A stretch of 64,000 nt of DNA from Liolophura sinensis (Eukaryota; Mollusca; Polyplacophora; Chitonida; Chitonidae), in contig NC_088301.1 in the NCBI RefSeq assembly GCF_032854445.1, positions 6,990,044-7,054,043 of the forward strand, in the 5' to 3' direction. Position numbers and translations under genes: made by a program. The notes below the pieces were generated by a model, which did no database searches, was not told the DNA's origin, and saw nothing but the letters and a program-made list of their open reading frames with translations. Below are positions 925 to 60,479 of the stretch, piece after piece; within the stretch, counting starts at the first letter, position 1; each line of letters begins with the position of its first letter.

Positions 925-3900
925 CAGACTATAAATATGCTGTAGTGCTAGCGCTATATTTTCCAACAATGTCTCATCATTTGGGAAGATTTTATGTAAA
1001 GCTATCTTTAGATTCAGGGAGAAGATCTTTACGAGCAATGATAATTTATTGATGGTCATCCTGGCATCTGGTGTTATGCTTGTCTCACCAATGCCTTCCA
1101 AATGAAATGAACTGTTACAGTGCTTGTAATGAAAATATAAATGCAGCAATGTGTACATGTTTATGTAATGCTGGCCAACCAATCTGTATTGACAGAGCAC
1201 CACTGGTGTTACCACACACAATATGAACAGCTGGTTCCCCTTACCTCATCATAAATCTCTGCCATAAGGGCGTAGAGCTCCACCATCCTGTATGGGCGTG
1301 CCCCCAGTTCCCGCTCCTCAATCTTCATGGCCGTCTTCAGCAATTCTAGGGCCTCAAGGTATTTGCCTGCTTGTATTCTATATACAAAGAGAAAACATAA
1401 GCTGTAAACACAGACAAACACACAGCACTTTCCTGCTTGTATACTATGTACACAGACAAAACACAAGCTGTGAACAGGGACAAAACAGCAGGTACTTTCC
1501 TGTTTGTATCATACATACACAAATAAAACACAGGCTGTGAACGAAGAAAAAAGACAAGGTATTTTCTTGCTTGTATACCATGTACACAGAAAAAATACAA
1601 GCTGTGAACAGGGACAAAAGACAAGGTATTTTCTTGCTTGTATCCTACATACACAGACAAAACAAGTTATAAACACTGACAAAACACCAAGTACTTTCCT
1701 GCTTGTATCCTACATAGACAAAACACAATTAAAATAACATCACACAGAAGTAACATTTGGAGTAACATGATGATGTCTATGACATCATATTGTGTGTCTT
1801 AGAATTGGCTGGTCAGTTGCTACTCACACAACTCGGCAAACTTTCTCGTATCTGATGGATAGCAGCTCCTCATTGATGGCAACATCCTCCTCCAGGGCCG
1901 ACAAAGCCACTTTGTAATGATCCACCATTTCGGAGGACGACCCAACCTGACAACAACAACAACACTGCCACCATAACCATTTATCTATTTCTTTGGGGTT
2001 ACCATGGCAAATATATACCATATACAACAGCGTGGAAGGAATCACTTCCACTATATGAGTTACTGACAAATCTCCTAGGCTCACTTGTTCAAAAGTGTCT
2101 TAGTAGTTAAATAAGTAAATGCCTCATACAATTGAGTTGACTTTTAGTGGTGAATTTCGTAATTACACGAACAATAATGTACTCTACAGTTTGCATTGGA
2201 ATTTAATGCCCTTGGCAAACTTTGTTGCTCTGTATAAAATGCTGTAACAACATACCAAATCTGAGCATCATCTGTCCAGATATTGCTGTAATATTGATGA
2301 TGTGGCATTAAGCCATATTTATTCATTAAACCTAAATCAGGTGACACATTAGGCAAATTCTTCCCTTTCGTAAAGGTGTATTCTGCAAACTTCCAAACAC
2401 CTGTTTAATGTGTCTGTGCTGGCAATGGGGTATTTCTCAGGTGATCTGGTCCGCTACAAAATTTGCTTCTATCATTCGTCAGGTACAAGTGACATGTGAG
2501 CTCCCACTTAAAGTAATACTCTATCTCTTGAAGAAACAAGATCATAATCATATGTTTTGGACTGTTTTATTGCAGGACATTAGTAATCCCAATTTCTGAA
2601 GCTTCTACCTTCTTCCTCACCTTTCTCCAGTAGACAAGAAGCTGTGAACTGAACTCCTCATGGTAAAGTTTGTCAAAGACACTCCAGTCACATAAACATT
2701 TGGCCAGTCGATACTTGTCCTCTAGACACACTAGGTGGTAAGGGTACTCCTACAACAACACCACCTCAAAATAGAGCCTGAACACAATTTTGTACATTTA
2801 ATGATTTATTAATTTATTTATCTGATTGTTGTTTAACACAATACTCAAGACCTTTCCACATGTATGATGGCAGTCAGTTTTATTCATGTGGGAAACCAGG
2901 GTGTTTGGCACAAATCACCATCTTTTGAGCCTCATGGACAGTTTTATCAGCAAGGCCCAATGAACAGCGAGAGCAGGGGAAGATAAAAATTCCCTGTCCA
3001 AGGTCGACTTTTAACCCGTACTTTATGTGTAGAAGCAACTGAAAAATTTGTCAATTGTAATCACCAGAAAAAGACAAACTGAATTTTAGACATTTTTTCT
3101 GACTTCCACATACTCCAGTTAAAAGTCTAAGAGAAATTCTCCACAAGACTGAGACTCTAACAATGTATGTATATCAACATCCACTCAAAACAACTGAGCT
3201 GCAAAGTATAAAAGACTGACCTCACAAATTGCAAGCGCTTAAAAAGCCAAACTCTGAACAGGAACATACCCTATTTATGGCTGGTACATTGTTCTGAAGT
3301 ACAGAATCTGTTTTACAATTCCTAGAGCAAAACATTTTAACTGTAGCTTTGCTTGAGTTTCTGACTTACGTCTTAAGACATTAGATAAATATGTCCCCTA
3401 TATATTTATTCAGGCTTGACCAATTTTTTAGGTAACTACGAAAATCCTTTGTCAACTGTCAGCCGATCAGCATTCTAATAATGTAAATCTACATGTACCT
3501 AACTCCAGCACTGTCTTAATCATTACACATACCTCCACCAGCCTGTCAACATTATCCACACCCTCAAAGAAATCTGCCAGTTTTTTGTGCCACCAGTAGA
3601 AGGCATCAGCACAACCATCCACATCCGCATCACCAGCATCCTCGGGCTTCTGGAAGTACCTGCAATATGTCAAACAAGATACAGAATGTGACACAAAACA
3701 GACAATGTGACACAGCAGAGACAGGTATGTTAACTCATTAGCACCCTGGGCCATCTGGAAGTACCTGTAATATGTCATACAAGATACAGAATGTGACACA
3801 AAACACACCATCTGATACTGCAGATACAGGTGAGATGACTCATTAGCACCCTGGGCCATCTGGAAGTAGCTGCAATATGTCAAACAAGATACAGAATGTC

Positions 3901-6900
3901 ACACAAAACAACATCTGACACAGCAGATACAGGTATGATGACTCATTAGCACCCTGGGCCATCTGGAAGTACCTGTAATATGTCATACAAGATACAGAAT
4001 GTCACACAAAACACACCATCTGATACTGCAGATACAGGTATGTTAACTCATGAGCACCCTGGGCCATCTGGAATTACCTGCAATATGCCATACAAGATAC
4101 AGAATGTCACACAAAACAACATCTGACACAGCAGATACAGGTATGATGACTCATTAGCACCCTGGGCCATCTGAAAGTACCTGCAATATGTCATACAAGA
4201 TACAGAATGTCACACAAAACACACCATCTGATACTGCAGATACAGGTATGTTAACTCATTAGCGCCCTGGGCCATCTGGAAGTACCTGTAATATGTCATA
4301 CAAGATACAGAATGTGATACAAAAAACATCTGATACTGCAGATACAGGTGAGATGACTCATTAGCACCCTTCGCCATCTGGAAGTACCTGCAATATGTCA
4401 TACAAGACATAGAATGTGATACAAAACAGACAATGTGACACAGTAGATACAGGTATGATGACTCATGAGCACCCTGGGCCATCTGGAAGTACCTGCAATA
4501 TGTCAAACAGGATACAGAATGTCACACAAAACAACATCTGACACAGCAGATACAGGTACCTGGGCCATCTGGAATTACCTGCAATATGTCATACAAGATA
4601 AAGAATGTGATACAAAACACACCATCTGATACTGCAGATACAGGTGAGATGACTCATTAACACCCTGGGCCATCTGGAAGTACCTGCAATATGTCAAACA
4701 AGATACAGAATGCCACACAAAACAACATCTGACACAGCAGATACAGGTATGATGACTCATTAGCACCCTGGGCCATCTGGAAGTACCTGCAATATGTCAT
4801 ACAAGATAAAGAATGTGATACAAAACACACCATCTGACACAGCAGATACAGGTATGATGACTCATTAGCACCCTGGGCCATCTGGAAGTAGCTGCAATAT
4901 GTCAAACAAGATACAGAATGTCACACAAAACAACATCTGACACAGCAGATACAGGTACCTGGCCATCTGGAATTACCTGCAATATGTCATACAAGATAGA
5001 GGATGTGACACAAAACACACCATCTAATACAGCAGATACAGATGAGATGACTCATTAGCACCCTGGGCCATCTGGAAGCAAATGCAATATGTCATACAAG
5101 ATACAGAATGTGACACAAAACACACCACCTGACACAGCAGATACAGGTATGATGACTCATTGGCACCCTGGGCCATCTGGAAGCAAATGCAATATGTCAT
5201 ACAAGATAGAGGATGCAGTAGATACAGATATGATTCGTAGGTTGGCATGTCATATGACATGTAGCTGAAACACTGCTGATGAGAAATGAAACCGTAACAA
5301 TCCTTTCATTGTCATAGAGAGAACATAAACACTATCTGATCTTCACTTGAATTTTACTAACAGTTGTTTATAATCAACCTTTAAAAAATGCTATCAAAAA
5401 TGTAAAGAACAGGCACTTTAAGTGTATTCATAATTTAATTCTTCAATCTGTTTGCACGTTTCTTAAAGCATATTTTGAGAGCATTACTCTGTGTAGATTG
5501 ATAACATTTTACCATTTTGAAGCCGTAAACTTGGCAAACCCAACTGTGTAGTTTGTCTCCAAAATCAAATTTAAAAATGAATAAATCACACCGAAAATTG
5601 CTCTTTAATAGGTGAAAAGTCGAGAATTAGGGCAATAAGTGCCTCATTTTGATACGTCAAAAATTTTATCAACCAACCAATTGACAGAGTGATTATTAAA
5701 ACTGGATGCTGGCGGCAGCTCAAAGCTTTATCACTGCAAATTAACTCAGATATTTCCGTCTGCACAAGGTCTTGGATTAACAGTGATATACTGACTTTTT
5801 CCTGACAGCCTTGCTCAGGGCTCTGTGATAGAAGTCAAGCCGACCCTCCGTGCTCTCCCCAAACGGCCTCAAGAAGGGTTTCAGTGTGGAGAACACTCGG
5901 TTCCACTTGCACTCTGTCAGCAGTCCGCTCTGCTTGACGCTCTCCTTCTCAGATGTCTCTTTCTCCTCTGCCAAAGTGAACGCATGAGTGTCAACTCTGG
6001 CAAACACGTGTACATTACCAGAAAACAACAAGGGTCCACTTTTACAGAACTTCATAAACCAATGTCCTGTAATTTTTCTCGTAAATCACATTGCTTTGTA
6101 GTGTTAAAACCTAAATGATGTCTGCTACCAAACTAAGTGTAAGGAAATATGACGAAGTTTTGTGAGCCCCCTTGGCCAAGTATATACTGTACATGTACGT
6201 TTCCCTCATCATAACGTGTTACAACATTACAACACATGCTTGAATACCATGTAGTCCCAAATTGGTCTCCCCAAATTTACACAATTCTTTTTTTTTTTTT
6301 CATATATACGCATACATGCACTTAACAGGATTTCAAATACCTGACATTACACATGATTTGGCCTCATCTTTTGCTACACTGTTTGAATAAGCACCTTGAT
6401 GACCTCTCCTTTGCTTGTATCATCATAGCTTTACAGCAAAGTGGGGAAAATCAGCACATTTTAACATAGGTGGGTTAACAGAATAATTAATATTATCCAT
6501 ACTAAACTGATGACTTATATCCTCCAATATGTATTTTAGAGGATTTGCAAAGTATTTATTTATTTATTAGATTTATATTTTACGCCATACTCAAGAAACC
6601 CACAACCATCCACAGGTTGGTGAAGGCCTTCCCAAGTATGGCATTTGCGAAGAAAATCAGGAAATTAAAGTCATGTTTTGTTAATCATTTTCATTATTGT
6701 ACAAACTTGCCCATGTCCATATACAATAATTTACCACACCGTAGAGCGATGATGTCAGATTACCAAGGTATCTTTCCATTGTTATTAGAGTCAGTACTGT
6801 CTTGAAAATTTGCCATGTTTAATTTTAATTTTACAAATTCTGATTAAAATAAATTTAATCCATCTTTGTACAAGATAGTATATGTGGCTGAACAAGTGTT

Positions 6901-9900
6901 ACTGTGACAGCGAGGGCAGTCAAAAGCATGCTGACTGTCAAACAGATCACTTACCTTTCTCATCAAAAGGTGAGGGAGGCATGAGGGTGGCCTCATTGCC
7001 CAATATGTGTCTCAACTCTGACTCTAGCAGACCCGCATTAGACGATTCCAGTAAACATAGCGTTGCCACAATTAAGTGACCTCCCCTCTCTCCTTCAAAC
7101 CGAGTCAACAGTTGCTCTAATAAACTAAAACAAAAAGTTAATATAATGTATTAATCAAGCAACTGCAGTAGACATTTCTCCATAACAGTTTATATATGCA
7201 GGAGGTCATCATGACAAATATGTTTGTTGGGTAACACTTCAAAGGTTTTATTGGCCTCTTGATGGCATTTTTTTTTTTAATTTCTCTAAATGTTAATTTC
7301 TTTAATATCTCTTTCATTAGCCTGAAGGAAAAAAATCACTATCAACCGATCCTACCTTTTCTGATTAGGACGCCTTACCACCAACAAAGAATTTTTTTAA
7401 TAATGATCACGCACACATTGTTTTCAGCAATCTTGCACATAAATTCAATTAAATTAAACCTTCAGGACTATTTGTCAACAATTTCTGACAATTACTAAAT
7501 ACAACTGGATTGGGCAAGTCATATATGGGCTGAAAAATAAGTTTTACTTCAAATATAGTTGGCATTTTAAAGCCTATACAATGTACAGAGAAGAGAAATT
7601 GATCAGACTTTTATAGTGGGAATGGTTGTTTGCTTAAACTGAACTTTTTGTGGCTGTAATAAATATCAGTAACTGTTATAAATAATAATTATAAATTAAT
7701 TTACTTTTAATTTAACTACCAATCTTATTGACAGGAGAGCTGCTAGCCTCTCACTGCATTTATTCGTTGCTACATGTGTCTTTAATGAGATTTAAAGGCA
7801 AACCTATTCCTCACAATTCTGCTGTGTAGCACATTTTCAGGATATATTCAGTCGTTGCTTTATTTCTTCACATTCACATCCAAACTGTGGACTGCACCCA
7901 AAGTGATGAAAATCAATCTCAACCAGTCTGAACTATATGAATCTGATTTGTTGAAAATTGTTCGCAAGCATGGAAGGATGGAGAAACACGGAGGGCATTA
8001 TCACAAACAAGGCTTTGATGACTTACTTAAGTAGTCCATCAGCGAGGTTATCTATGGTGGAATCTATCACACTAGAGTCATCAATTAAACGAATCTCCTC
8101 ACAGGCCACGGACAACCACAGTGGGTTCTCGGAAGACTCCTTAGCCAGCAGTTTCTCCACTTGACTCTCTGAGAGTGATCTGCGGTAACGGCCCAGCATC
8201 TCCTCAATTATACCCTGCAGAAAACAATGATTACTTCAGCATTTCCTGAATTATACCTCCAGGGCCAAAACAATAATTTAATATGATATCAATTACACAA
8301 TGAAGACAACAACAAAAATTACAGCAATCTTCAAGGACAAAAAACAATACCTTACATTGTAACATCCCCTCAATTATACCAGAAGGGCAAAAGAAATAAC
8401 TTAGAATGTTTTCAATTACACCTTGAGAACAAATATAATAAAAAAGAGGTCATCCTTCATGAAAAACAAAAGGGTTCCTCTTCATGAATAGCTGCACATG
8501 TGGTACAAGTTTAATGAACAGAAGGACAGACTAATGCCGCCCACAATGACAATAAACCCTGGACCATTTTGGCTGTGGGGTAAAAGGTACATTTTGGGAA
8601 CATAGACTTTCTCCCCGATATCTATTGTCAGAGGCTACATGTGACTCTTACCTTTCTAGACTGCATATCAAGAGGGGTAATCTGTAACTCAAGAGGCTTG
8701 GTTTCTCGGCTCATCAGTGTTAAATGTTGTGGTGTGTCATTTATGAGAGAGAAGACACATCGCACTTGAGGGACCAGTTTCCGTGGCAACCAACTCATCA
8801 CTAATGCTGCTTGATCTTCGGCAACCTACACATACAGGGACAACACCATTATTATTCAATTTTTTTGATTATTTGCTTTGCATTTAAAGTGGCAATCAAG
8901 AGTTTTTCGCTTTTATATAAGATAGCATTCAGGGTTATCAGTGGAGGAAAGGGGAGTAATTCATCATTCCTGACAAACCACATGACTTTTAATAGGCAAA
9001 CTATCAACAGCTGGATTTAAGCCTCTGACCTTTGGGGCTGATCACGAGTGCCAAGGAGCAATCCATTGCTCCTGACAAACCTCATGACTCTTAATAGCTA
9101 AACAATCAACAGCTGGATTTGAACCCATGATCTGACTGGTCAGGGGTCGATCGACAGCAAAAAGGTCAACGTTTCATCCAAATGAACCGCAGAGGGCCTT
9201 AACAGCATGATTATACTTGTAAGCAATAACACAACATTTTACCTGCAAAATGCACAAGGCTAATGTGGAGGAAACATGTTAACAAGGTATATGAATTAAG
9301 AAGGACACAGACATTTGTGTGCTGTAATTTGGGCACACACATGACAACTTTATAGTAACAGATCTGGTTATTGGACATTAAAGCCACAGGATCACAAAGC
9401 TGTCTTTCACTAACATCAGACTTAGTCTTAACTTGGGACACCATTCTCGAACTTCTATTTAAGCTTAAACATAAACTTTCATTTTTAATTTGAAAGCCTA
9501 GGATAGGTTATTGTATTCTTAAGTCACAATTTTAGCTCAGCAAGCTGTTCTGAAGTTGTCCAAGACACACTTGTCATCCTGGGCCAGATATAAATGTATG
9601 AAGGCCTATAGCCAAAAAAAGTACTGTCAATAAATATTACCATTCGTACAGTAGTGAAAGACAAATTCTAAAGATGTGATATTATGCGCCTAAGAGCATA
9701 ACATATACGCACCTGATTTAGGGCATCAACAAAGATAATGAGGGGTTTAGTGTTGGGGTTTGATAGTAGACTGCAGACCATCTGTGCTGCCGCCTCTAAG
9801 TTCTTGGGCATACTGGACTCCTGCACACAAAACAGAGCAGACAAACACATGTACACTGGATTCCTGTGTCCAAAACGCAACAGACAAATACATGTACACT

Positions 9901-12900
9901 GGACACTGTACCCAAAATAGAGCAGATCAACACACATACATGTATGTTAAACTCCTGTACCCAAAACAGAACAGATTATGTGTACTGGAACACAAAAACA
10001 AAGCCAAAAAACACATGCATACTCGACCCCTGTGCCCAATTAATTTTAGTTTTTTGATTGGTGTTTTACAGATTTAAACACTGGACTAATGTGCCCAAAA
10101 CAGAGTAGATAAACAGATGTAAACACCGGACCACTATGCCCAAAACAGAACAGACAAACAGCTGTAAACACTGGACTACTGTGCCGAAAACAGAGCAGAT
10201 AAACACATGTAAACACTGTACTACTGTGCCCAAAACTGAGCAGATAAAAAAATGTAAACACTGGAATACTGGACTACTGTACCGAAAACAGAGCAGATAA
10301 ACACATGTAAACACTGGAACACTGGACTACTGCGTCCAAAACAGACCAGACAAACAGATGTAAATACTGGACTACTGTGCCCAAAACAGAGCAGATAAAC
10401 ACATGTAAACACTGGACTACTGTGCCCAAAACAGAGCAGATAAACACATGTAAACACTGGACTACTGTGCCCAAAACAGAGCAGATAAACACATGTAAAC
10501 ACTGGACTACTGTGCCCAAAACAGAGTAGATAAAGAGATGTAAACACTGAAACACTGGACCACTGTGCTCAAAACAGAGCAGATAAACACATGTAAACAG
10601 TGGACTACTGTGCCCAAAACACAGCAGATAAACACATACATAAAACAGATGAGATAAAGACATAGATGAACTTGACTTTGGTCCTACGCTGTATTAAATT
10701 TGTCTTCATTTTACAGTTTAGAAGCCACTTAAAAATGACAGAGCATTTGGTGATCCCTCAAAACCATTTTAATTTATCAGAATTTAGAACAGACAGCACA
10801 TTAATCTATCACTTACAGTGAGAATACAGAAAGGTAAAATCAGTTGTTACTTACACTGGTGACTTCCATCTCAGACAATAGACGCTTTAACATGGGCTCC
10901 AGTGTGGTTGAGCCTGGCACGGCTCCAACAAAGTGATAGAACACGTGCCACTGACCACCTGCACACCTAACAAGTACAAAAACAGGCTACTTCAGTGTGC
11001 TTTAGTAAGGCCAGTACCACATAGTCTTATTAAATCGAGTTATATTTAATGTATTTCATCTAAAGTTAGGCACAGTATTTCAAAACGCACTTTGAAAAGA
11101 ATATAAAGGCCTTAAAATGATTCTTCGGATGCCAAGACGTGAATATTTCTAATAAGAAATTAATCACAAATTGGAGTGGCGAACACCACTATTAAAGGCT
11201 TACCCTGCAAGCTGTCGCTTCTGAGCTTTACTGGAGATAAGCTCCGCAGCTTTACAGAGAATGGAGGACTTTCCACTACCTGGTCCCCCTAATAACAACA
11301 GTGGAACATCTTTTTCTTCGTGGGTTATGTATGCTTCAATCTGAAATGAACAAAACAACTGATTTATAGATAATCACACTATAATGCATGTCATCTAGCA
11401 TGGTTATGTTAATACACACCTACTGTTATTCCAAGACAAATCTGTGACAGTTTGAATTTTTGAGATCATTCTTCAATTTCCATTATAGAGCTACTCCAGT
11501 GTCAAGACCTGTATGTCTTAAAAGGAGGGTAAAATGATAAGCATCAAGACTGAATTGCTTTCCTACAATGCCAAAAAAAAAATAACTGCATTATTAAAAC
11601 CACTGTTGTTAGTCTCGGAGGATAATGCAGAAACAAAATTCTGTCGTTTCCAATTTTGCCTGGTGTGACTTCTTGCAAAAACACTTGACATCATCCATCA
11701 CTGACGTATAGCCACAAATGGTGTTGCACTTTCAAACTCACATGATGTCACTCCAGCACAAATGACATACTTGATGTCACATCTGCCTGATCTGTCATCA
11801 CAGAAAGAATATTATCACATCACAGAAAGTGACGATTTTCTTTTTGAGGACTTTTCACATCCAGTGATTCAACAGTGTTATTCATCATAAATTTCCATGG
11901 GTTGCGCAGTAAGCTCTATTCAGTACATCTATTCAGTTTATGTCATGTTAATATTTCTGCCTGGTTTCTCTCAGGACTGAAGTAGCACTTAAAGGTCAAA
12001 AAGCCCTGTAACACTGTAAGTATGCCAAAACCAAAATGGGGCCCATCCTGACAGGTAAACCATCGCATGGACCCTGACCAATGAGATTGCCCATATCCAG
12101 CCCTTCCATCAGCTTTGAGCCAAACGGATTGTCAGGTTGCAAGCTGTATTTATTTATTTGATTGATTTTTTATGCCCTACTCAAGAATATTTCACTTATA
12201 TGATGTCGACCAGCATTATGGTGGGAGGAAACCGAGCAGAGAACGGAGGAAATCCACGACCATCCGCAGGTTGCTGACAGACTTTCTCACGTACAGCTGG
12301 ATGCAAGCTGTAGTCCAACTCTTGATGCAGCTTTAAGCTAGGAGAATCGTGCTGGTTTACTTCTCAGCATCATCAGTTTGACAGGGTAAACAAATTATGA
12401 CAACATTTTTTTATCCAAATTTTCATGTTTGGGGCATATTTTATGTCTAAAAAAATACTCCAATATTTTGTGCATATTTTCGATCAGTGGTCAGAAGTGT
12501 TCTAAGTGGCATCAACAGTGAACTTACCAGCTCAGCAGAACCAGCTTAACAACCCGCTTCTGGTCCACTCAATTCAGAATACTTCCCCCACAGAGAGGTT
12601 TTGAAAGCTCTCATCATTGTTGTCATGACTGCAGACTATATAATTTCTGGACAGAGCAGGGCCTGGCTTCACAAAGCACTCTTAACATTATGATCACTTT
12701 ACGTTGTTATGGTAGTTATAAGCTCGTAATGTTAATAGAGCTTCGTGAAACTGGGCCCTGACTGCTTAAACCACTCCCAATAAGGCTAAGAACATTTATG
12801 GTACTTTTATATGTTATAACAAATCCCAAGCTACATGTTAAGAAAAACCAAACATTCTATGTATCCTTTACAAGTTGTGTACATGTCACATAAGATTCCT

Positions 12901-15900
12901 CCGGCTTACTTTGTCTAGGATATCCTCTCTGCCAATCACCATGGCACTCTTTCGCTTCAGGAAAGTATTCTGAGATTGTTTACTCAGGGTGTAAGGATTG
13001 TTGGAGGTGGGGAATTCCCCACAGTAATCTATGGATATCCGTTCCTTACAAAAGTCAAGTATCTGCAACAGAGAAAACTGTCATTGTGTAAAAATTCTGA
13101 GAGAGATACGGAGTGCAGAGAATTAAGCTGTAGTTTTATGAAGCTTGCATCTTCAGTGACACAAACAAACCTTTTAACGAACATGTTTGTAATAATAATT
13201 GTATGCTTAAATTCCAGTGAATAAAAGATTTACAGCACTGTGTATGGTGCCAGACTAAAATTACTTCAGCATTTTTCTCCACCTGTACCACTTTATTTAT
13301 TTATTTGATTGGTGTTCTACGCCGTACACAAGAATATTTCACTTATACAACGGCGGCCAGCATTATGGTGGGTGGAAACCGGGCAGAGCCCGGGGGAAAC
13401 CCACGACCATCTGCAGGTTGCTGGCAGACCTTCCCACATAAGGCCGGAGAGGAAGCCAGCATGAGCTGGACTTGAACTCACTGGGTCATTACGCTGCGCT
13501 AGCGTGCTAACGAACTGAGCCACGGAGGCCCCCCTTGTGAATATACCAGGTGCAGTAAATGATCTAAACTTTCACCCATGACAAACTTTCACATGATGCA
13601 TGATTTAAGACAGCTCTGTTGATATTACAAAGGTGTTTTCAGGTCTGTTTGGAGATAGAAGGATACCCTACTGGGAAAATAAGCATTTCAGCACTAAAAG
13701 AAATATTTTACGACATTTACTTGCCTCCAAAAAGTACCAAATTAGGCCGCATGTTTATGCATGTATATGTCTGTAGATGATTCTCTGGGAAAAAACCTTT
13801 CAAGTGGTTTTACATTTCTCATTGTGCAGAAAAAACAGACCTTCTCAGACAAAACATGTAGTACTGTGACGAAAACATATGGATAGTCTCTTATTCATAT
13901 CAGACTGACTCATGTTACCTGGAAGTAATGATGCTATATTGGAAGTGTATTTGTGATTACTTGACTGTACTGCGAATTTCACATCAAATACATGACCTGT
14001 ATAAGAGCAACAACGAAACACGAAAATGGCGCAAAACATTCATAAATAACTGTCGTCTGCAGCTTACCTACACCTGGTGTTAAGTTCTAAAAGAATAATA
14101 CAATACTGCATGAATATTCAGAGGAACTCTCGTATTGGCTGATTGAGCCGGAGATAAACAATCACCACAATTGAACATTAAACCTAGAAATTTATTTGGA
14201 CATTGAACTGTGAGTCTTCCTACATGTCTGATGCATGTCTAATATTTTATTGTTTACGAAATTAAAATATAAGAAGAGTTTCATGGGGTTATTTTTGATA
14301 AAGGTATACGTTGTTGACAACTGATTACAACAACAGTCAAATTTCAATCACTGATTGTCACAGAATTCTGGTGTAAAAATGTACTCAATGTTTGCTTAGA
14401 AATTACAGTTTATGAAACAGGTATATATTGCTGGAGTTTCTATGGTCTTACCTTAATTAGAAGCTATTTAAATGTTTATTTCCGACCGAAATGATTCACA
14501 TCACTTCGTCGTGGTTTGTAAAGCCCGCCAAGATGCTTAGCATTTCGGATTGGAGGCTTTAGAATCTACGATTTTGAAAATTACGAACACGGCTCATGTG
14601 TTATATTGGTATCGTTAGAAAGAGCAGATTTTATAGTATCTGTGTTCTTCAAATTAATATTGAACATAGCACTATTTGATAAAAAAATTACGGGGTTTTT
14701 CTTTATGTTGGCATGGGGAAAATTATGCTATTTCAGCCTTATTGCCTTCACCATCGTAGTAAATTATAGGCAGGGTGTAGTAAGAGGTGAACGCTGCTCA
14801 ATGCACGTCAGCCAATCAAAATGTATTTTTTGGCGATTAGCACCACCTACTCTGTCTGCACGCTATAAAAGGACGCTCATGGCGTCTGGCAGATGGTCAT
14901 GGAGGTCTACGACAGTCAAGACAAGGGCAAAGACAAAGGCAAAGACAAAGGCAAAGGCAAGGCAAGGCAAGATCAAGGCATAGGCAAGATCAAGGCAAAG
15001 GCACAGCGAGTTTGAAGAATACCACAAATGAAGATTCACAGTTACTGAAGTATACAGATGCAAGACACCTATACAACACGACAAGGAATCAGCACATCAT
15101 CAGGGATCGCCGCTCTTCCCAAGAGGAGCCACTCTTGATTGACAGCGGGTGGAGCTTGTGTATATGATCTGGTGGGAGATTTGCTCAATCCAATGGGAGA
15201 TTTGCTATCTTCAGTGTATTATGCAGGAAAGATTTAGTGTTATACTGAAGGAACTGTGACTATATGAGTTAAAGAGTTACTTCTCTTATATTAAAATATA
15301 CCTAAGGGATTATGGTTAGGTAGAAATTCCAGCACATATACCTGTTGTAATATTTTTAAATTGCTAAAGACTGTTCACTGTCTATAGCCGTGTCAACAAG
15401 CCGCCCAGAGTTATTCCCCATGAAACTCTCTCTTACAAATGGTATTGCCAATTCTGAAGGAATATTTGATGATTTGACTGTATATATGTGAATAAATGGA
15501 TTTCACTGTTTAGTGTTCGAACTGAAAAACAAATCTTCGGATCTTCTATTAATGAAATAAGTCATTGGAGTTTTCCTCCAAGAGTTATACTGGAACAATA
15601 CATACTGGGAATGTATTTGCTGTATTAAATAGAGTAACAACATTGAATTAACTATTGGAGTATTGAGAGTAAATCCATATTTCTGTAGTGATGTCTCCAA
15701 TTACTTGAGGTAAATATCGGTCTCCTACGCTACCAAAAATATAAGGCTTTTTACCTCAGAGTCGACAGAGATTAACTGGTGATAAACAGAGAGCAGAGCA
15801 AAACCTGTATTGTTAATCTCTGAAGGTTGCAAGACTGGGTTATTAAAGTGAAATCCGCTACAGTACTTTACTGCATACAATCTCAATTTGACCTGGTTTA

Positions 15901-23788: not shown

Positions 23789-23822
23789 GAGTGTCCCTCC
23801 CAGTGCAGCAGGAAACCGTCCA

Positions 23823-32800: not shown

Positions 32801-35800
32801 TTCATGTTGAACGCAGGAGTAAAGCAGAGGATGCTTAACAGCTATTTGAAAGAAAGTATTTTTATGCATAGTTTCTAGTTGTTGATCTGATGAACCTTAA
32901 TTACTTTACTTTTTATTTATTTATTTGATTGGTATTTTACGCCGTACTCAAGAATATTTCACTTAGACGACGGCGGCCAACATTATGGTGGGAGGAAACC
33001 ATGCAGAGGGGGAAACCAGGGGAAAACTACAACCATCGGCAGGTTGCTGGGAGACCTTCCCACATTCCACTTTTTTTTTTTAGCTTTCTTTCACTTTAAA
33101 TGAAGACTGTCTGTAAGACCTTTTTTTTTATCTACAGGGCAAATGAGTTTAGAGAGAAAACCTCCCAAGTTCAGGAAGATATTCGTCAACTTGATATGGA
33201 CATTGAAGAAAATCAAGGTGTTTATATTCACATAGTGTCAGGTTATCCTTGGAGTAGTCTTCTCTGTACAGTGTGGTGATAGATAGCTGCCAACACATGA
33301 TCATGTCCTAAATGATGAAGTTACGAGATACTGTTATCCTTGGAGTAGTCTTCTCTGTACAGAGTGGTGATGGATAGCTGCCAACACATGATCATGTCCT
33401 AAATGATGAAGTTACGAGATACTGTTATCCTTGTAGTAGTCCTCTCTGTACAGTATGGGGATAGATAGCTGCCAACACAAGATCATGTCCTAAATGATGA
33501 CGTTACGAGATACTGTTATCCTTGTAGTAGTCCTCTCTGTACAGTATGGGGATAGATAGCTGCCATCATATGATCATGTCCTAGAAAATGAAGTTACAAG
33601 ATACTGTTATCCTTGGAGTAGTCCTCTCTGTACGGTGTGGTGATAGATAGCTGCCAGCGCATGATCATGTCCTAAATGATGAAGTTACAAGATACAGTTA
33701 TCCTTGGAGTAGTCTTCTCTGTACAGAGTGGTGATAGATAGCTGCCAACACATGATCATGTTCTAAAAAATGAAGTTACGAGATACTGGATTTACAAACA
33801 AGCCTCTAAATAATTTTCTGATAAAGTTGGTGCCTGATATGATTGGCTATTATTTTCGAGCTAGCCATGTGCATTATTATTTTGTGTGAATTACTCATCA
33901 TGTCAGTCCCCTCTAACAGTCCATTGACAAAGGATGCTCTGTGGCTAGAGGTAATATCTTACTATGGCGAATTTATCCCTTTCATATAGGCTAGTCTTTG
34001 TACCTTTGTTTATTTCTCTGTTTCTCTGGACTGTTCAGTCTGAAATAAAAAATTACTATTACTATTATTATTGAAACAGGAACAAAGTTATTTCCAGAAT
34101 TTTTGTCTTGTACCAAACAGTTGGCCTCTGTCAATATAATATTTAGGCAGAACATTTCTCGGTTTTTCTCAGTTTTCTTGCACAAAGTTGGTCCCAGAGG
34201 CCCGTTCTGCAAAGCTATTGAAATGCTGCATATTTACCATGGTGACATAGAAATTGCGCCACGCTTTATGGTTTACGACTGCTTAGTAGAAAGGGCCAAT
34301 GATGTACATTGTTATCAATGTGTATAATCTTTTCACATGCCATACCACCTCCCACCCAATCCCATTGTTCCTTATTCAACAAGTACTGTTTTCTGTTGTA
34401 GGAGAGAGAAACCTTAAGTACAAAGAGCTGAAGAAAAGGGAAGAAACTATGAATGGTAAGATCATTAAGCTGTTAATTGTGCATCTACGTTAACATCGTC
34501 ATACAGAGTGTTGATTCTTACTTCCTCATGTATATGTAGTTGCCAAACATTTCTCATTTATTTGCAAAACAAAATGTCAACAACTACATCTATGAATCTA
34601 AAAGTGCACAGACTGTTATAAAATACTTCCTTATACGGCTGGGGTAATCTTACAACGGGAAAAAGTCAGAAGTTATGTTCACTTGTACCTGTGACCTTGA
34701 TGGTTTTACAGAGTTGGTTAAATTAACGGATTCATGAAAAGGAAGGAAAGTTATTATTTATATCTCTTTATTTTATGCATATTTTCTGTCCGTGGTCAAC
34801 AATGATCTTACTGTGACAGACTGCTGTTGCGTGTAAAAAAAAAAGGCCAAAGCCATTTTACTGCCACACCTCACCTCCCTCTTGTCCCTCGCAATCCCAT
34901 CCCAAGGAGAAATGGTTTTGTACTTTCATATGTAAGGACTCCTCCTGAACTGTATATTAAGAAATAAAAACCATACATTTCATGTATACTTTAAATAGCT
35001 TTGTTGCTACAATAAAAATACTTCTGGAGGAGTGTTGTATTGCTTTGCATGTTCTTAATACCTTTTTTTTTGTATTTGTATATTGCCTCTAATTTTGACA
35101 GAATTCCTGAACACATTTGAGGAGACCAAGGTTCAAGAACTGGTAATATCACTATATATTTAAAGAGGCATCTTTTATACTTTAGACACGGCACCCAGGG
35201 GGCGGTTACGATTATTCAGAAACACAGGTGTCGCCAGCTCAACCTAGCCAATCATGTCACGTTATTCACCGTTATTGTTACATGATTGGTCCACATAAGC
35301 TGACGACATTGATGTTTCTGCGTAATCGTAAGTGCCGTAGGTTACAAAAAACATAACTTAAGTACCATTCTCGGTCAGGGAATTCTCTTGCTTCACTTGC
35401 TCTCAGGATCTTGGTGGCAGAATTTACATGTCTTACAAGAATTTCACTGGAGGCCACTTAACTTCCTCCAGTATGATACACATGAAAAAGTGCAGGCCTA
35501 CAAGAAAAGGGGAAGGGAAGTAACCAGTACAACTTGCCTAAGGTTAATTTATTTGATTAGTGTTTTACCCAGTACAAACAAGTATTCACATATAAGACGG
35601 CAGCCAGCATTATGGTGGGAAAAAACCGGGCAGAGCCTGGAGGAAACCCATGACCATCTGCAGGTTGCTGGAAGACCTTCCCACGCATGACCTGAGAGGA
35701 AGCCAGCATGAGACTGGCCTAAGGTGAATGGTTAACTGATGGCTTTCCGGTTTCCTGTAACTATAATACACTGACCATGATATAAGTGAAAAATTCATCA

Positions 35801-38800
35801 GTGTGCTGTTTCACAACAATTAAAAAATTGATATATTCATGTGGACACATTTTGATTACTTGTCAAACAGTTGAGCACTGTATAGGTATGCTAACCAGTT
35901 CTATGCTTGGTTTGTGACAGCTACAAGGTTTATACTCACCATTTATGATGTGGCACTTGATGAAGGATAGGAAGATCTTTATTAAAGAGTCTATACCAGA
36001 GAAAAATAAAGGATCGCCTCAAATCCAGTTGACTTTTTCCTATTCCCTTTGACAAATATCTGCCTTGTCTGATGTGTTCAGAATTGCTATTGAAGTTCTT
36101 AAACTTTATGATGTGGGATGCATTATGACTTTTTCAAATTTTAGAATCATTTTAACACTGTAATAGCACAGATTTACTGAAAGGCAGTAATTCAAGCTAT
36201 TCTTGGTAAATAAAAAAAAGTTTGATTAGCAAATGTGCATTTATTGACAAAACAGCCTCTGTAAAGTGCAGCCTGTGGAGTCTTTGTGTCTTACATCATA
36301 CATGCACATGTTATGTTACACTGCAGCTTATGGTGGAAAATACCTTATCTTTTAGGTTACTCACAGATAATTTGTTTGTTACTGATATATCTTACTTGGA
36401 ACTGAGTTTTAACTGTAGTAAGGAACCCTTATTAAAGGTTTGTTTCAGTAAAATGTTTTGAATTGCATTGTACAGGAAAAGAAGGAGCATTTGGAGCAAA
36501 ATATTGTGGCCTTGTTGGAACACATTAGCAGAGTAAGTAACTTGGTCTCAGCTCTGGAACCCTGGCGTGGCGTGCAATTCTTCATGGCGAGTTGTTAACC
36601 TTGATTCCTCAACCTTTTCGCGTGTGAAAGAGCATCTTTCATTGCAATTTATGCACATTTGTATTGATTTGATTTTCAAGGCAAAACTAATATTCTTGAG
36701 TACGGCGTAGAACACCAATCAAAAAAAAAAAAAAAAAAAATCAAGGCAAAACTCTATTGGTTGGGCTGGCCAATTCCAGGGCGTCAAAAAAAGTATAATT
36801 TTTATCAGTATACACAAAATAATGGCTTCAGAATATGCTTGAATAAACACCTTGCAAATATGCAAAATGGTTGAAGAGTTACAGTACATTTAGTAATAAA
36901 AGGCCCTATTGAGGGTCCTCCTCCCAGTACGCTTTGCCATGCTGATTCCTGGTCCTTGTCATCACAAATGCTCCGATGGTGATGCTCTGCAACCAGGATG
37001 GCCCATTGGTGTTGGTGTAATCTATATATCAAAACTGTTGTTTTTTTTTTACATTTTGTTAATTGTGAATTAAGGGTTCTGTGCTGAACTTTCGGATACT
37101 TAAGCTCATTTTAAACCTGCAGTGAATGATACATTTCTACATTAAATACACATATAGATGTAACAATACATATACTTTCATTTTGAAGGTAGAATGATAC
37201 ATTGTAGCAATGTGATGTCATTGTGCTAATAGCCAATTTAAAAAGACCCCAAATAACCCACCAGAGGTCTTCAATGTTTTTTTGTATTTTTAAATTATTC
37301 GCTGAAAAAAAAATGTACAGCCGGAAATGGCCTTTCAGATGATGTATACATACTTAAGCTGGCCTGTTATTTATAAACAGAGGGCACTGTGTATAAATTT
37401 TAAGCTGTGTGCACAGCCAAATCAGTGACACAGAGGATAGTCTGATCTCTACTGTTTTATCGGCTACAGCAGATCCGACAATAGACTATGGCTGCTCTGG
37501 GAGACGTACAGCCTTTGGTTGGTGGGTTTTTCTTTTAGCTGTTTAACTCCTTAACATCAAACATGGCAAAAAACTAAAACATGTTTCCCTTGGAACAGAG
37601 AGTATTGGACTATACATTCAAACAATGTTTCAGACATTTCTATCATTGTTAACTTGAAAAAGTAAACCTAAACAAAATTTGACCTTTTTTCTGTCCTCAG
37701 AACATGGGTCGCTTTTCCCATCTGCCCTCCCCCAAGGAACTGGCTAGAATGAAGGAGGATCTCTCATTTAAGGCTGGGGAGATGAAGAAATCTGAGGCCA
37801 CAGCATCAGGACTGGCTTCAGGTATGTGTTAGTGCTTGCCCTACACACTTCTGTTGTGTAAATGAAGATCGCCATCAGCTGAAATGGCCTTTGGTTTGTA
37901 TCCGTAAATCCAGTTTCCTTTATTAAGAACCAGCTTTAAAAAATTGATCTTGGGCATATCCTGTGTTTGTCAGAAAAAAAGGAAATTCTAGCAGAAAATG
38001 TTTAGGACTTTATTTATTTATTTATTTATTTGTTTGGTGTTTTATGCCGTACTCATGAATATTTCACTTATACGATGGCGGCCAGCATCATGGTGGGAGG
38101 AAACCGGGCAGAGCCCGGGGGAAACCCACAACGATCCGCAGGTTGCTGCAGACCTTCCCACATACGACCGGAGAGGAAGTCCGCATTAGCTGGACTTGAA
38201 CTCACAGCGACCGCATTGGTGAGAGACTCCTGGGTCATTGGTGTTCAGGTCCATATGAGGACAATTTACTTCCTATTCCTAGGTCTGAGCTGATTGGATT
38301 TCTGGTTTCTAAAGGGCCCAACTGAACTTAGCAGGTTAATCTGTCTTGGCTATTAAATCCACTGTTGGGATTGTGTATGTCACACTCACTTCGTGTTAAT
38401 TATAGCCTTAACTGCAGTGAACGTGGGGGCTTCTGGGGCTCAGTTGGTTAGCGCGCTAGCGCATCGTAATGACCCAGGAATCTCTCAACAATGCCGAGTT
38501 CAAGTGCTGCTTATGCTGGCTCCCTCTCCGGCCGTATGTGGGAAGGTCTGCTAGCAGGTTTTGTGTTCAAGATGACATTTGAGCTACTTACATGTGTCTT
38601 GAACAAGGAAATCACACAAATTCAGTTCTATAATATAATGCAAACAGCCTTGTCAGGACTGTGATGGATTTTGTGGCTGTCTTCAGAGAACGACAAGTTA
38701 CAGCAGGACTTGCATAAGGTGGAACAGCTGGAAAATAAGATGACCTCAGAGATGGCTATCATCAAAGAGAAGATAGAGGCTATGGAGAAAGAGCTGGTCG

Positions 38801-41800
38801 TCTTCTCCAACATTGATGCCCTGAAGGAAAGTGCTGAGCAAAAGCGTAAGGTAAGGCAAACAGCCTGCGCTTAAGCGGGCATACCCTGTGCTTCTTATTT
38901 GTCTGACACTGTAATTATTCTGACGCTTTCCAGTAGGTGACTGATTTGTGTTGACACAAGGTAAGGCAAACAGCCTGCGCTTAAGTGGGCATACCCTGTG
39001 CTTCCTATTTGTCTGACACTGTAATTGTTCTGACGCTTTCCAGTAGGTGACTGATTTGTGTTGACGCAAGGTAAGGCAAACAGCCTGCGCTTAAGTGGGC
39101 ATACCCTGTACTTCTTATTTGTCTGACACTGTAATTGTTCTGACGCTTTCCAGTAGGGGACTGATCTGTGTTGACTCAAGGTAAGACAAACAGCCTGCGC
39201 TTAAGTGGGCATACCCTGTGCTTCCTATTTGTCTGACACTGTAATTGTTCTGACGCTTTCCAGTAGGGGACTGATCTGTGTTGACTCAAGGTAAGGCAAA
39301 CAGCCTGCGCTTAAGTGGGCATACCCTGTGCTTCCTATTTGTCTGACACTGTAATTGTTCAGACGCTTTCCAGTAGGTGACTGATCTGTGTTGACGCAAG
39401 GAAAGGCAAACAGCCTGCGCTTAAGTGGGCATACCCTGTACTTCTTATTTGTCTGACACTGTAATTGTTCTGACGCTTTCCAGTAGGGGACTGATCTGTG
39501 TTGACTCAAGGTAAGGCAAACAGCCTGCGCTTAAGTGGGCATACCCTGTGCTTCCTATTTGTCTGACACTGTAATTGTTCTGACGCTTTCCAGTAGGTGA
39601 CTGATTTGTGTTGACGCAAGGTAAGGCAAACAGCCTGCGCTTAAGTGGGCATACCCTGTTCTTCTTATTTGTCTGACACTGTAATTGTTCTGACGCTTTC
39701 CAGTAGGGGACTGATCTGTGTTGACTCAAGGTAAGGCAAACAGCCTGCGCTTAAGTGAGCATACCCTGTGCTTCTTATTTGTCTGACACTGTAATTGTTC
39801 TGACGCTTTCCAGTAGGTGATTTGTGTTGACACAAGGTAAGGCAAACAGCCTGCGCTTAAGTGGGCATATCCTATGCTTCTTATTTGTCTGACACTGTAA
39901 TTGTTCTGACGCTTTCCAGTAGGTGACTGATTTGTGTTGACAAAAGGTAAGGCAAACAGCCTGCGCTTAAGTGGGCATACCCTGTGCTTCCTATTTGTCT
40001 GACACTGTAATTATTCTGACGCTTTCCAGTAGGTGACTGATTTGTGTTGACAGAAACCATTGTTAAGTGGTTATAGCTACCTTACACAACTATTTTTCAG
40101 GTGGATCAATTTATGTTTTTACACTTCATCTCTCATTGATCATATTTATTTAATCTCAAAATTAAATTATTATGGCTAAAATTAGCCATATTTTCAAGAC
40201 CTTTTTCTCAAATGTAGCCCAACATTTGATGGGTAGTAGTAATATAAACGAGGACAGTTTTGTCCAGCGTCTTGAAAAACTCAGGGAACAAGTCTGGGAA
40301 AAAGTTCTTCATGATACGTTTTACTTCATACCAAATATCTCGTGTGTTTCTGTATTACAATACCTCTCAAACCTTGATAAGAATAAGGCCAGTGGTCTAG
40401 ACAATGTCAGTGCTAGATTGCTTTCATCCGCTTCCCTCATTATTGCGTACGACGTTAAACCCCAAGCACTCCCCCATTATGGCAAATCTTTGACCATGCT
40501 AATAAACAGATGTCTTATGACCAGTTCTTTTCCAGATATGTGGAAAATTGCTAAAGTTATCCCTTTTACGAAGGTGGTCCAAAGGATAAAGTTGAAAACC
40601 ATCGTTCAGTATCTGTCCTACCCATTGAATGACATGTACATATCAGTTTATATGAGTATCTCTCAAAATTAAAATTATTGCATGAAAATCATTTGTTTTT
40701 CTCTCTTTATTCTCTTGTGAAACTGAGAATTGCCGATAATGGTTGAGCACTGGCAGAGGGCGAAAGATAATGGGGAAGTTATTGGAACCGTACTTGTAGA
40801 CTCCAAAAAAACATTTGATACTGCATTCGTCATTATATACTACTTAAAAAACTTAAAGTATACAAATTTCACTCAACTTCTCTTACTTTTTTCCAGTTGT
40901 ACCTATCTAACAGACAACAGAAGGTTGTTGTTGGAGTAGAAATGTCAAATGCTATGGATAATAAGGCCAGAGCCACGCAAGGCTCCATATTAGGACCTTT
41001 ACTATTTATTCTATACATAAATGATCTTCCATTATTTCTGAAAGACAGTGGCAATTCTGTTGGGAACTATTTCACACATTGATATACTGTTGGTCAAGCA
41101 ATGTTTTCTGACATTGAGTGTCATATAAACAGCAGTTTGGACTACATTAAAGACTGGTGCGACATAAACCTCATGCTCATGAATCACCAAAAATCTAAAT
41201 ACATGATACTGGGCTCCAGGTAAAGGCTGCAGTTAATCAAACATGTGCCTTTCTCTGTTGTGCTTGATGGAAGTACGAGTCAGTAATGCTAAACTGCTTG
41301 GTATTTATATTGATGAACATCTTTCCTGGAACACACAAATCAGAAATGTGTGTAAAAAGGTTTGTAAATTTTTAGGGATTCTACGAAGGAAGAGAGATCT
41401 TCTAACACGTCACTGGTGATATTTTCTGTAAGTCTTATGTTCTTCCTCACTGTGATTATTGCTCTTCAGTATTGGAAAACTGTTCAATTAAAAACAGAGA
41501 AAGGATAGTCAAGTTAAAGAAAAGAGCTGCTTGTTTAGTTTTGCAAGAAAGCATAAACATATCTGAAAGAACTTTACTTTCAGGAATAAAAACGATGCAT
41601 TTTAATAAACGGGTAAACTACAAAATTCTTTGTATCATCTACAAAGCATTACATAATCACTGTCCAAACTATATTAAACAGCTTTTCCCTCCAAACAAAC
41701 AGCTGCACAATATTGTTTTCAGATCAACACAACATAATATCTATCTTCCTAAAACAAGGACAAATTACACGACGGAGGTAAAACAAGGACAAATTACATG

Positions 41801-44797: not shown

Positions 44798-46689
44798 TTA
44801 CTTTCCATAAATACGTCCTGAACCATAAAGAGTCGGTGGTTTTAGTACATCCCATGTGTAGATTTCTTTGTGGCATGTTTGATAACTTTTGTAAGTAAAT
44901 TTTGAATCTAGAATTATAAAGTAGGCATGGCATATGCTAAATGAGAGAATACAGAAACATGATGTGGCGTGACTCAGTGCTCTAAGCTCATCCAGTTTAA
45001 ATGGAAAAAGGTCAAACTGGGATTGCATGACATCACAACAGAAACTGATGCATTCTGGGCTTATAGAAAAAACTCCTTCCAGATTAGGTAAAATTTATAA
45101 CATGGCAGTGCTTTTGATTTTCTTTGTGTTGCACGATTTTGCTTACTTTGAACTGTTATACAACATTGCAAAAATAATAAGATGTGCATCTTAAAATTTG
45201 CTTGGGATGCTAGCTCTTCTGATACATATACAAGTGGTCTAGTGTCTTTTAAGCAGACACGATAGCGGATGTACCTCATTTTTGCCATTTAACAAGTAGC
45301 CAAGCATTGATACAGTTTATCCTCAGTTAACAAATGTGATATGAGTATGGTAAAGTTTTATCATATTTAATGAGTTTAGAGAATGTACTTTTGTTCTCTT
45401 CATTTGAATATGTGTTCCACCATTTTAAGAGGACACAGATGTTATATTGGATTCTGTAACATGTTCTCTATGTTTTTGTTTTACAATCAACCCTTCTGTA
45501 GTTGTTCTCTTCATCTTGTTTCAAAGTGCAAAGATTATTTAAAAAACGCATTCCGTCCAAACAGGTAATCTATTCCAGTTTGCCTTTAGTTAGTTAGTTT
45601 TTGAAACTCAGGCCTGTACAATAAATTTGGGTTTCCCAACCAGAGTGTTGGGAACATTTCGAGTTCAATCTGTTTGTATTTGCCTGTTGTTATTTATTTA
45701 TCTATTTTTGTTTTTGTTTTTGTTTTTTTCATAAGTTTGGTACAATGCCTCACTTTGTGAACGTGTATGCGCTTAAGCTATTTTCTTTGCATTTACAACA
45801 GTGAAGAATATTTCATTTGTGTGGTGACAGGATCTATGAAAATTCACTCTTTCCTATCTGGAAATTTCCCTCTCCTCTGTACATAACCTGGTTATTTGAT
45901 AACATGTAGAACATATCTGTATGTATATTAATTGCTTGATGTATAGAGTAGATTTACTTGTTTCTCCACCACATTAATTGGCCTTGCATCACATTTTCCC
46001 TATTTTCATGTATCTGTGACATCTTGAGATAATTGATATGTTAGGGGCAAAATATTTGCCTGGGGGGCTTGTCCATTGAGAACAGTGTTCATGGGCGGGT
46101 GGGGCGGAATGCTCACAGCCCGCTGTTCCCAGATGACAACGACTAGTGGAAGAGACCACTATTGAGCCCAGATACTGTGCCTTTTTTAGGACTTACACTC
46201 TTATATGTGCATGTTCTTCCCCGACACTGCAAGATCACCAGCCAAGTCAGTTTCCTCCCTAAATGCTTACTCCTGATAAGTCTGGTGTGCTGACATTGCT
46301 CAGTATACCTGCTTGGCCCTATCAGGAGTACATGCCATAACTTGTCACTCAAGTATTTAGTAATATGAAAATTGCACCACATTGATTTAACTGGACGTCA
46401 TTTTTATCATGGCCACTTTAATTTTTTTATTGGCGCCCAGGTTTTTTAGCCTAAATGTGCTAGGTAATAATATCTGAGCACAGGGCTATTTAGGCAACCA
46501 GGGTATTTGGCCCTTAGGTCCCAAATTGGGTGTACCTTGAACATTGTATGTACCAGTCAGAAAAACTTCTATACTAATGCATATACAAGATTAAACTGAG
46601 GCCAAACATTCACCAGACCCCAGACACCCCAACAGAGGTCCATAATATGGATTAGTTTAATCAATGGAGACACAAGGTACTAAGGATCT

Positions 46690-60210: not shown

Positions 60211-60479
60211 AATTTACAGTCAGGTAGGGCATACCGAGACCTGGAGAAGACACCAAATCACATATTCTAAGGCTAAAGTGGAGGGCCATAACCATGTGCC
60301 CAGAATTCATTGGTTTTTCCATGAAACACTGATTGTACACCAAGGGGAAAACAAATAGTCATGTGTAAATTAACAGAATTATTGTGCAAGTAAATGTATC
60401 ATACATTTATGGCTCCAGAGCAAATACATAACATGATCACAAAGACACTGGCATAAAAACTTTCAAGATTTCAATCATA

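Follow-up and report, generated by a model that had tools for sequence, protein, structure and literature searches.

Tandem arrays that multiply exon-intron junctions in the chiton Liolophura sinensis are, on balance, best read as mirage-type minisatellites that are general in the genes sampled and denser at donors, with a bias in founding or retention somewhat likelier than luck as the source of that density. In the sample, array density at donors is about three times the random-landing prediction, and acceptors are at expectation. The starting material was a stretch of 64,000 nucleotides of the Liolophura genome, hereafter the window. This genome was first deposited as L. japonica and has since been corrected to L. 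sinensis.

Results

Five arrays in the window overlap exon edges

Window arrays were counted with TRF (period of at least 18, score of at least 100), and broken rows of one unit were merged by hand. Five of the 12 arrays overlap an exon edge by TRF and reading of the strands, with unrelated units of 67, 105, 45, 31 and 110 bp. Four of them lie on the minus strand in a nephrocystin-3-like gene. By TRF and sequence, the 67-bp array (1357-1720) covers the acceptor 1377|1378 of a TPR exon and takes in 21 exon bases, and the 105-bp array (3635-5215) covers the acceptor 3659|3660 with 25 exon bases. The 45-bp array (9812-10637, in TRF rows 9812-9937 and 10068-10637) covers the acceptor 9820|9821 with 9 exon bases, and the 31/121-bp array (16809-18524) covers the donor 18508|18509 with 16. 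The fifth, a 110-bp array on the plus strand (38848-40052), spans the donor 38850|38851 of a coiled-coil gene and contains only 3 exon bases (AAG). A sequence-only reading of the window had placed five arrays at junctions with about 6-20 exon bases per unit; the arrays, three acceptors and two donors were confirmed, while the exon share, counted by hand, ranges from 3 to 25 bp. Acceptor cases outnumber donor cases here (3 versus 2), unlike in the sample described below.

The joined exons of the minus-strand gene matched the Pfam model TPR_NPHP3 at E 2e-13, a match below the curated cut-off. The plus-strand coiled-coil gene is presumably IFT74-like; its joined exons gave no match in a search against PDB, so the name is tentative.

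It had also been claimed that every unit carries the junction, which proved too strong. Among copies at least 60% identical to the bases around the junction, AG was intact in only 3 of 5 for the 67-bp array, 13 of 18 for the 105-bp array and 14 of 16 for the 45-bp array, and GT in 5 of 11 for the 31-bp array and 9 of 10 for the 110-bp array. Eight of these last 10 copies score equal to the true donor or better. TRF counts more than 45 copies in the 31-bp array and only 11 match at 60% or more, so most of them are no longer junction-like.

The remaining arrays include two on the plus strand, of 91 bp (33242-33788) and 46 bp (53821-54248), which begin 24 and 27 bp into the intron past donors located by hand at 33217|33218 and 53793|53794. 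The earlier statement that four other arrays copy no junction stands for these two, yet both start this close behind a donor. The gene with the 46-bp array is presumably HSDL2-like and carries a Pfam adh_short match at 51231-51572. Nine arrays had been given in all, and TRF added three: one of 33 bp (1-216), one of 29 bp (41750-41837) and one of 40 bp in two blocks (46687-47301 and 47820-48535).

The units are unrelated

At E 0.001, similarity was detected neither among the window arrays, save between both blocks of the 40-bp array, nor among 18 junction-straddling arrays of the sample, nor between sample and window arrays. Homologous copies at unrelated places, as expected of a mobile element or introner, were not found among these arrays at that threshold. 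The 67-bp array, the only one of the five searched genome-wide, gave one match, a lower bound. The unrelated units and this match bear out the proposal of repeated independent origin rather than one transposon, and on such sequence evidence the view that the window arrays probably arose repeatedly and independently is supported. It is extremely improbable that they are artefacts of assembly or copies of a dispersed mobile element. Neither has positive support; the Liolophura HiFi reads, with a mean of 8,347 bp at 14x coverage (PMC11068029), exceed the longest straddling arrays, which measure 1,716 bp for the window and 1,361 bp for the sample, and a mobile element is at odds with a unit that differs at each place.

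Donor-straddling arrays exceed random landing in a wider sample

For a test of generality, exons were found by Pfam models of myosin, dynein and helicase, blind to the arrays. The final sample comprised 280 kb at 101 loci, with 464 called junctions (235 donors) and 72 arrays; arrays with a period below 18 or a TRF score below 100 were left out. Exon calls combined Pfam and tblastn matches with a hand-made splice score and used neither RNA nor published gene models. In the first sample of 166 exons, 19 acceptor and 22 donor edges were dropped for low splice score. Also dropped were 17 of 65 tblastn matches, lying mostly within arrays, 5 of 81 myosin matches and 24 of 76 helicase matches (7 whose frames ran past 300 residues, 13 weaker and 4 others). 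Helicase windows L066 and L079 overlapped by about 400 bases and L072 and L078 by about 320, with no counted array there. Arrays merely near a junction were not counted, among them L011, L033, L038, L047, L082 and L084; neither was L061, where a helicase exon end is followed by 22-bp donor copies but the TRF start lies 94 bp further in.

In the null model, each array was collapsed to one founding unit landing at random. Across the 464 junctions, 18 of the 72 arrays straddled a called junction against 9.75 expected (P 0.005). Donors accounted for 15 against 4.84 (P about 0.0001), or against 3.47 when the smallest TRF period was taken as the unit, and acceptors for 3 against 4.9 (P(<=) 0.26). 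Donor counts were 7 versus 2.29 expected for myosin (P 0.006), 5 versus 1.20 for helicase (P 0.004) and 3 versus 1.10, in the same direction, for dynein (P 0.09). By the time the donor hypothesis was formed, every myosin and dynein piece and 40 of the 52 helicase windows were already known; the 12 helicase windows that followed gave 2 donors against 0.30 (P 0.03) and no acceptors against 0.21.

In an earlier version of the count, the 291 junctions of the first sample (analytic null) gave 12 straddling arrays against 4.4-5.7 expected at TRF scores of 50-300 (P 0.002-0.015); at a score of 800 there were 6, with about 2 expected. A later version with 48 added exons gave 16 against 9.2 (P 0.014), made up of 13 against 7.3 in the first sample part (P 0.02) and 3 against 1.8 in the first 40 helicase windows (P 0.27). 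An early distance profile found a rate of 2.9 per 10 kb on the exon side versus 2.7 (score 100) or 1.7 (score 300) in the intron; alone and unadjusted for unit length, it shows little or no excess.

Array edges, donor motifs and whole-genome words

By donors, array edges per 10 kb numbered 7.5 at -60 to -3, 6.0 at -3 to 40, 3.3 and 3.4 out to 120, and 2.7 and 2.6 out to 300; the corresponding acceptor bins held 2.3, 3.0, 2.2, 2.3, 4.7 and 2.7. Within 120 bases there were 27 donor and 10 acceptor edges, and further away 14 and 15 (Fisher P 0.046), a contrast that was weaker at a TRF score of 300 (Fisher P 0.06). A comparison that needs no exon calls agreed: a strong donor motif (score of at least 8) occurred in 18 of 68 array units in the sense direction and in 5 in antisense, the corresponding figures for array-free intron segments being 7.9% and 5.6%.

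The whole-genome word counts do not support seeding at splice sites; genic and intergenic arrays are pooled in them, and most of their weight comes from a few large arrays. The donor word CAGGTAAGT occurred in close tandem pairs in 470 of 9,807 cases and its reversed control in 232 of 4,854, which is equal per occurrence, and among separate loci in the first 100 matches listed, 6 of 48 were multi-copy for the donor word and 7 of 59 for the control word. Pairs numbered 91 versus 90 for TTTCTACAG and, counted as pairs only and not per occurrence, 276 versus 127 for AAGGTGAGT and 335 versus 297 for AGATGTCAG. Among the matches listed on contig C1, paired loci numbered at least 15 for CAGGTAAGT (to 93.39 Mb), at least 11 for AAGGTGAGT, at least 8 for TGAATGGAC and at least 22 for AGATGTCAG. 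A donor excess per word was not found in this whole-genome count. Of the earlier suggestion that a process favours splice sites, the donor part is borne out by the sample and the acceptor part is not, and these word counts lend it no help; only at donors does seeding at splice sites have support.

Tandem arrays make up about 12% of the sampled sequence, so junction overlaps are expected anyhow (about 10 of 72 arrays by random landing), and much of the raw impression of junction arrays needs no special process. Pure random landing would have duplications fall anywhere, those at junctions being tolerated as the exon-side copy works, and would leave the donor excess to luck or a flaw in exon calling. 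We regard this as possible but doubtful. It predicts the broad spread of exon share among sample units, from 3% to 93%, and fits both the acceptor count and the flat word counts; the donor excess, which reaches significance in two of the three families, and the agreeing strand test speak against it.

Exon-derived units and persistent decoys

As much as 115 bp of a 124-bp unit is coding sequence, exon-like tblastn matches recur within arrays, and none of the 18 straddled exon ends of the sample is more than 24 bases away from where a Pfam or tblastn match stops. On this evidence, exon sequence was the source of the units.

Decoy splice sites are not purged: of the donor copies found, 125 of 140 had an intact GT (89%), and of the acceptor copies found, 75 of 87 had an intact AG (86%). 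Mean identity at the 23 other bases of the copies was 84% and 83%, respectively, a comparison that is not clean because unshared exon bases lower the flank identity and copies were chosen by their flanks. The slightly better kept cores are what one would look for if the arrays were selected for a splicing function, for instance as reserve donors or for the regulated extension of exons. We consider this very improbable, given that comparison, units that are unrelated between genes and periods divisible by three (counted by hand) in 7 of 18 sample and 2 of 5 window arrays, near one third.

A splicing filter, in which selection removes acceptor arrays as their upstream decoys compete while downstream decoy donors are harmless, would account for the sample's ratio of 15 donors to 3 acceptors (P 0.0075 in a two-sided binomial test). 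It is nonetheless quite unlikely: acceptor arrays are not clearly below expectation, tolerated ones exist, as at L031 where 36 of 42 decoys score equal to the true site or better, and a filter alone could not push the donor rate beyond that of the remaining intron.

Discussion

We favour an origin in which a short segment chancing to span an exon edge would be duplicated in tandem, perhaps by slippage or unequal exchange, after which amplification and homogenisation would proceed on its intron side. The exon-adjacent copy, fixed by coding sequence, would still be the working splice site, use of the outer site being suggested by the intact exon ends; the other copies would turn into decoys within the intron, an anatomy visible in the sequence. 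The process is probably general across the genes sampled, beyond the two genes of the window, and for the donor preference a bias in founding or retention close to where introns start seems likelier than luck. A more specific proposal, which we put forward tentatively, is that a mutational process seeds tandem duplications with a preference for 5' splice sites, so that about 6% of donors (15 of the 235 called in the sample) carry up to tens of decoys, often as strong as the true donor, that the spliceosome ignores. RNA-DNA hybrids and transcription-linked breaks at intron starts are candidate triggers.

Should the donor bias hold genome-wide, it would indicate that mutation or retention is biased in a way linked to the intron start. 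The arrays offer a natural test of how cells choose the correct splice site, and the genes bearing them are natural experiments on whether the exon-proximal site always wins among many equally strong donors. Junction arrays would also be a source from which introns could be gained in the way proposed for lancelet globins.

In Rogers-type intron gain, a new intron arises within an exon. The chiton arrays share with it a tandem duplication that multiplies splice signals, but their copies sit to the intron side of a junction that already exists. That model, in which introns are gained when exon sequence containing AGGT is duplicated in tandem, has been discussed with the potato RdRp gene (PMC4974935). 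In human paralogous genes, variable internal tandem repeats at exon-intron boundaries may yield new introns, and at least half alter the coding sequence; they share the boundary position with the chiton arrays and differ in coming from recent segmental duplications (PMC2812944). Intron 3 of an abalone TSSK1-like gene holds a polymorphic 27-bp minisatellite, likewise intronic in a mollusc gene; in the parts of that report consulted, its unit is not described as junction-spanning (PMC6905558).

The closest relatives are the lancelet mirages, a term coined in an Adh paper (cited in PMC3087553), in which tandem duplication has turned exon-intron boundaries of ordinary coding genes into minisatellite-like repeats: the globins BflGb6 and BflGb9, Adh3 and troponin C, with similar repeats in PGBD5. 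Instability in length and in the soma has been reported for them, as has RT-PCR evidence (PMC3087553, PMC3902484). Regular mRNA splicing that goes undisturbed is a further mark of the kind. No report of mirages in a mollusc was found in the literature, judged on titles and abstract openings. The chiton arrays have the same unit content, joining part of an exon to the adjoining intron end (5 in the window, 18 of 72 in the sample); like the lancelet repeats, they occur at both 5' and 3' boundaries (2 donors and 3 acceptors in the window, 15 and 3 in the sample); and in both animals many, not all, of the copies keep AG or GT. Unlike the lancelet cases, they are hosted by a chiton, a protostome, their unrelated units are spread over several gene families, their rate has been set against a random-landing model with a donor excess in the sample, and they are known here from one assembly. 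The kind is already known from lancelets; what is new is the mollusc host, the rate with a null model and the donor bias.

Tandem arrays across exon edges in the window

Tandem repeat finder (TRF) analysis combined with sequence reading showed that 5 of the 12 arrays in the window, a total counted by hand from TRF, cross an exon edge. This confirmed the five junction arrays proposed by a sequence-only reading, whose tally had missed three arrays. The array copies derive from exon edges. The arrays with units of 67, 105, 45, 31/121, and 110 bp contain 21, 25, 9, 16, and 3 exon bases, respectively; the range of 6–20 exon bases per unit proposed earlier was thus too strong, as was the statement that every unit carries the junction. 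The five units are unrelated in sequence and therefore have independent origins, in agreement with the same reading. Four of the five arrays sit in one minus-strand gene; its joined exons hit the TPR model of nephrocystin-3 with E 2e-13, short of the curated cut-off. The fifth (110 bp) lies in a plus-strand coiled-coil gene, which we take to be IFT74-like. Two other arrays, with units of 91 and 46 bp, begin 24 and 27 bases downstream of a donor, respectively.

Other features of the window were also observed. Positions 46687-47301 and 47820-48535 form a single 40-bp array with ∼520 bp of other sequence between the blocks, which are 85% alike; this may reflect insertion into an array. A sense donor motif scoring 11.4, a strong value, is present in the unit of a 25-bp array (26910-27035); no adjoining coding exon was recognised, and the array possibly lies beside an untranslated or unrecognised exon. 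Open frames directly after the 110-bp array (40166-41801) presumably resemble a non-LTR reverse transcriptase. Several open frames, from both strands (∼13221-13475, 38006-38293, 59934-60257, and 62634-62909), share similar peptide-like sequences (stretches of 13 and 11 residues, with variants), which are a dispersed repeat.

The genome assembly

The window is located at G000:C7:6990044-7054043 in a genome, G000, of 632 contigs and 609,464,459 bases. The chiton assembly first published as Liolophura japonica, with 632 scaffolds and 609,495,693 bases in an extract of its report (PMC11068029), is ∼31 kb larger; its species name was later corrected to L. sinensis (PMC12441733). On contig C99 of G000 (loci L002 and L003), COX1 occurs seven times, one copy being partial, at a spacing of ∼15.5 kb. 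This series represents the mitochondrial genome assembled as a concatemer, and one further COX1 copy is on contig C632. The mitochondrial COX1 locus reads with the invertebrate code, and ND3, ND2, COX1, and COX2 are present in what we take to be a molluscan order.

Donor-straddling arrays in the sampled genes exceed random landing

Exons were sampled by Pfam models, blind to repeats, using 76 of 81 myosin head, 90 of 90 dynein AAA_6, and 52 of 76 Helicase_C matches; Helicase_C matches received one window each, a few of which share a gene. The sample comprised 49 pieces (207,048 bases) plus 52 windows, each 1,400 bases in length, giving 279,848 bases in total. Exon edges were placed by splice score close to match ends; with 48 extra exons from tblastn, the final set held 266 exons, for which 229 acceptors and 235 donors were called. 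Arrays occur commonly in the sampled genes: at a TRF period of ≥18 and score of ≥100, 72 arrays occupied 34,022 bases (12%) of the sampled sequence. At myosin locus L023, three consecutive exons (∼5696-5800, 6189-6284, and 6792-6887) all correspond to a single stretch of the motor domain, presumably like the mutually exclusive exons of molluscan and insect muscle myosin.

With units of tens to hundreds of bases, a duplication placed at random would frequently overlap an exon edge. In the null model, each array was collapsed to one unit that could land anywhere not wholly exonic without swallowing an exon. Straddling arrays numbered 18 against 9.75 expected (P 0.005; 72 arrays, 464 junction calls). 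Donors were over-represented among them, with 15 observed and 4.84 expected (P 0.0001); acceptors gave 3 and 4.91. Landing confined to the same locus gave expectations of 4.43 for donors and 5.64 for acceptors, and taking the smallest TRF period as the unit gave 3.47 and 3.48 for the same 15 and 3 arrays. At a TRF score of ≥300, 18 of 55 arrays straddle (donors 15 vs 4.14 expected). Donor counts were 7 vs 2.29 for myosin (P 0.006), 5 vs 1.20 for helicase (P 0.004), and 3 vs 1.10 for dynein (P 0.09). The donor hypothesis postdates the first 40 helicase windows, and the remaining 12 yielded 2 donors vs 0.30 expected (P 0.03). For all 18 straddled exon ends, a Pfam or tblastn match terminates no more than 24 bases away, and we read these ends as lying at conserved protein positions. 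At L061:700-1325, 22-bp copies come after a helicase exon end, and AG|GTCAGT is retained in several of them; this is a further donor 'mirage' (the lancelet term for a minisatellite-like duplication of an exon-intron boundary), outside the test count.

A strand test free of exon calls was performed on 68 arrays from the first 89 loci. Units with a donor motif scoring ≥6, ≥8, and ≥9 numbered 26, 18, and 14 in sense versus 14, 5, and 2 in antisense (paired Wilcoxon, P 0.003); acceptor motifs scoring ≥8 were found in 6 units on each strand. Matched array-free intron segments carried a strong donor motif (score ≥8) in 7.9% (sense) and 5.6% (antisense). At least one sense donor (L029:4391-5434) came from an exon absent from the exon list, by our reading a myosin exon end. 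Array edges per 10 kb, with 4 of 72 arrays unassigned, were 3.0 (−150 to −60), 7.5 (−60 to −3), and 6.0 (−3 to 40) around donors, then 3.3, 3.4, 2.7, and 2.6 in four bins from 40 to 300, 0.8 (300–500), and 2.5 (500–1000); acceptors gave 0, 2.3, 3.0, 2.2, 2.3, 4.7, 2.7, 1.7, and 0 in the same bins.

Against a donor bias, exact donor words across the whole genome showed no per-occurrence excess in close pairs (470/9,807, vs 232/4,854 for the reversed word). Among the matches listed on the first contig, a same-composition word gave 22 paired loci versus at least 15 for CAGGTAAGT and 11 for AAGGTGAGT; the reversed word TGAATGGAC gave 8. An early distance profile, before correction for unit length, showed little excess. 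The word counts fail to support a donor bias and do not refute it, since they pool genic and intergenic arrays and are dominated by a few large ones. Arrays could be founded by slippage or unequal exchange, with a putative bias in founding or retention at donors.

Decoy splice sites and comparison with lancelet mirages

Decoys, the splice-site copies inside the intron, were selected by 60% identity of the bases flanking the core. GT was retained in 125 of the 140 donor copies found (17 donor arrays, 15 from the sample and 2 from the window) and AG in 75 of 87 acceptor copies (6 arrays). Decoys scoring at least as high as the true site were 8/10 in the 110-bp window array, 13/15 in L062, and 36/42 at the L031 acceptor (both sampled loci), 0/16 in the 45-bp window array, and 1/17 in L027:5778-6333. 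Close to one third of the arrays have a period divisible by three (7 of 18 in the sample and 2 of 5 in the window). Retention, the many strong decoys, and these periods together indicate that decoys are neither purged nor frame-tuned. The simplest reading of the sequences is that splicing ignores the decoys and would use the outer, exon-side site.

We found no report of mirages in any mollusc in titles and abstract openings of the open-licence literature. As far as extracts of the lancelet reports describe them (PMC3087553; PMC3902484), mirages have the same anatomy as the chiton arrays.
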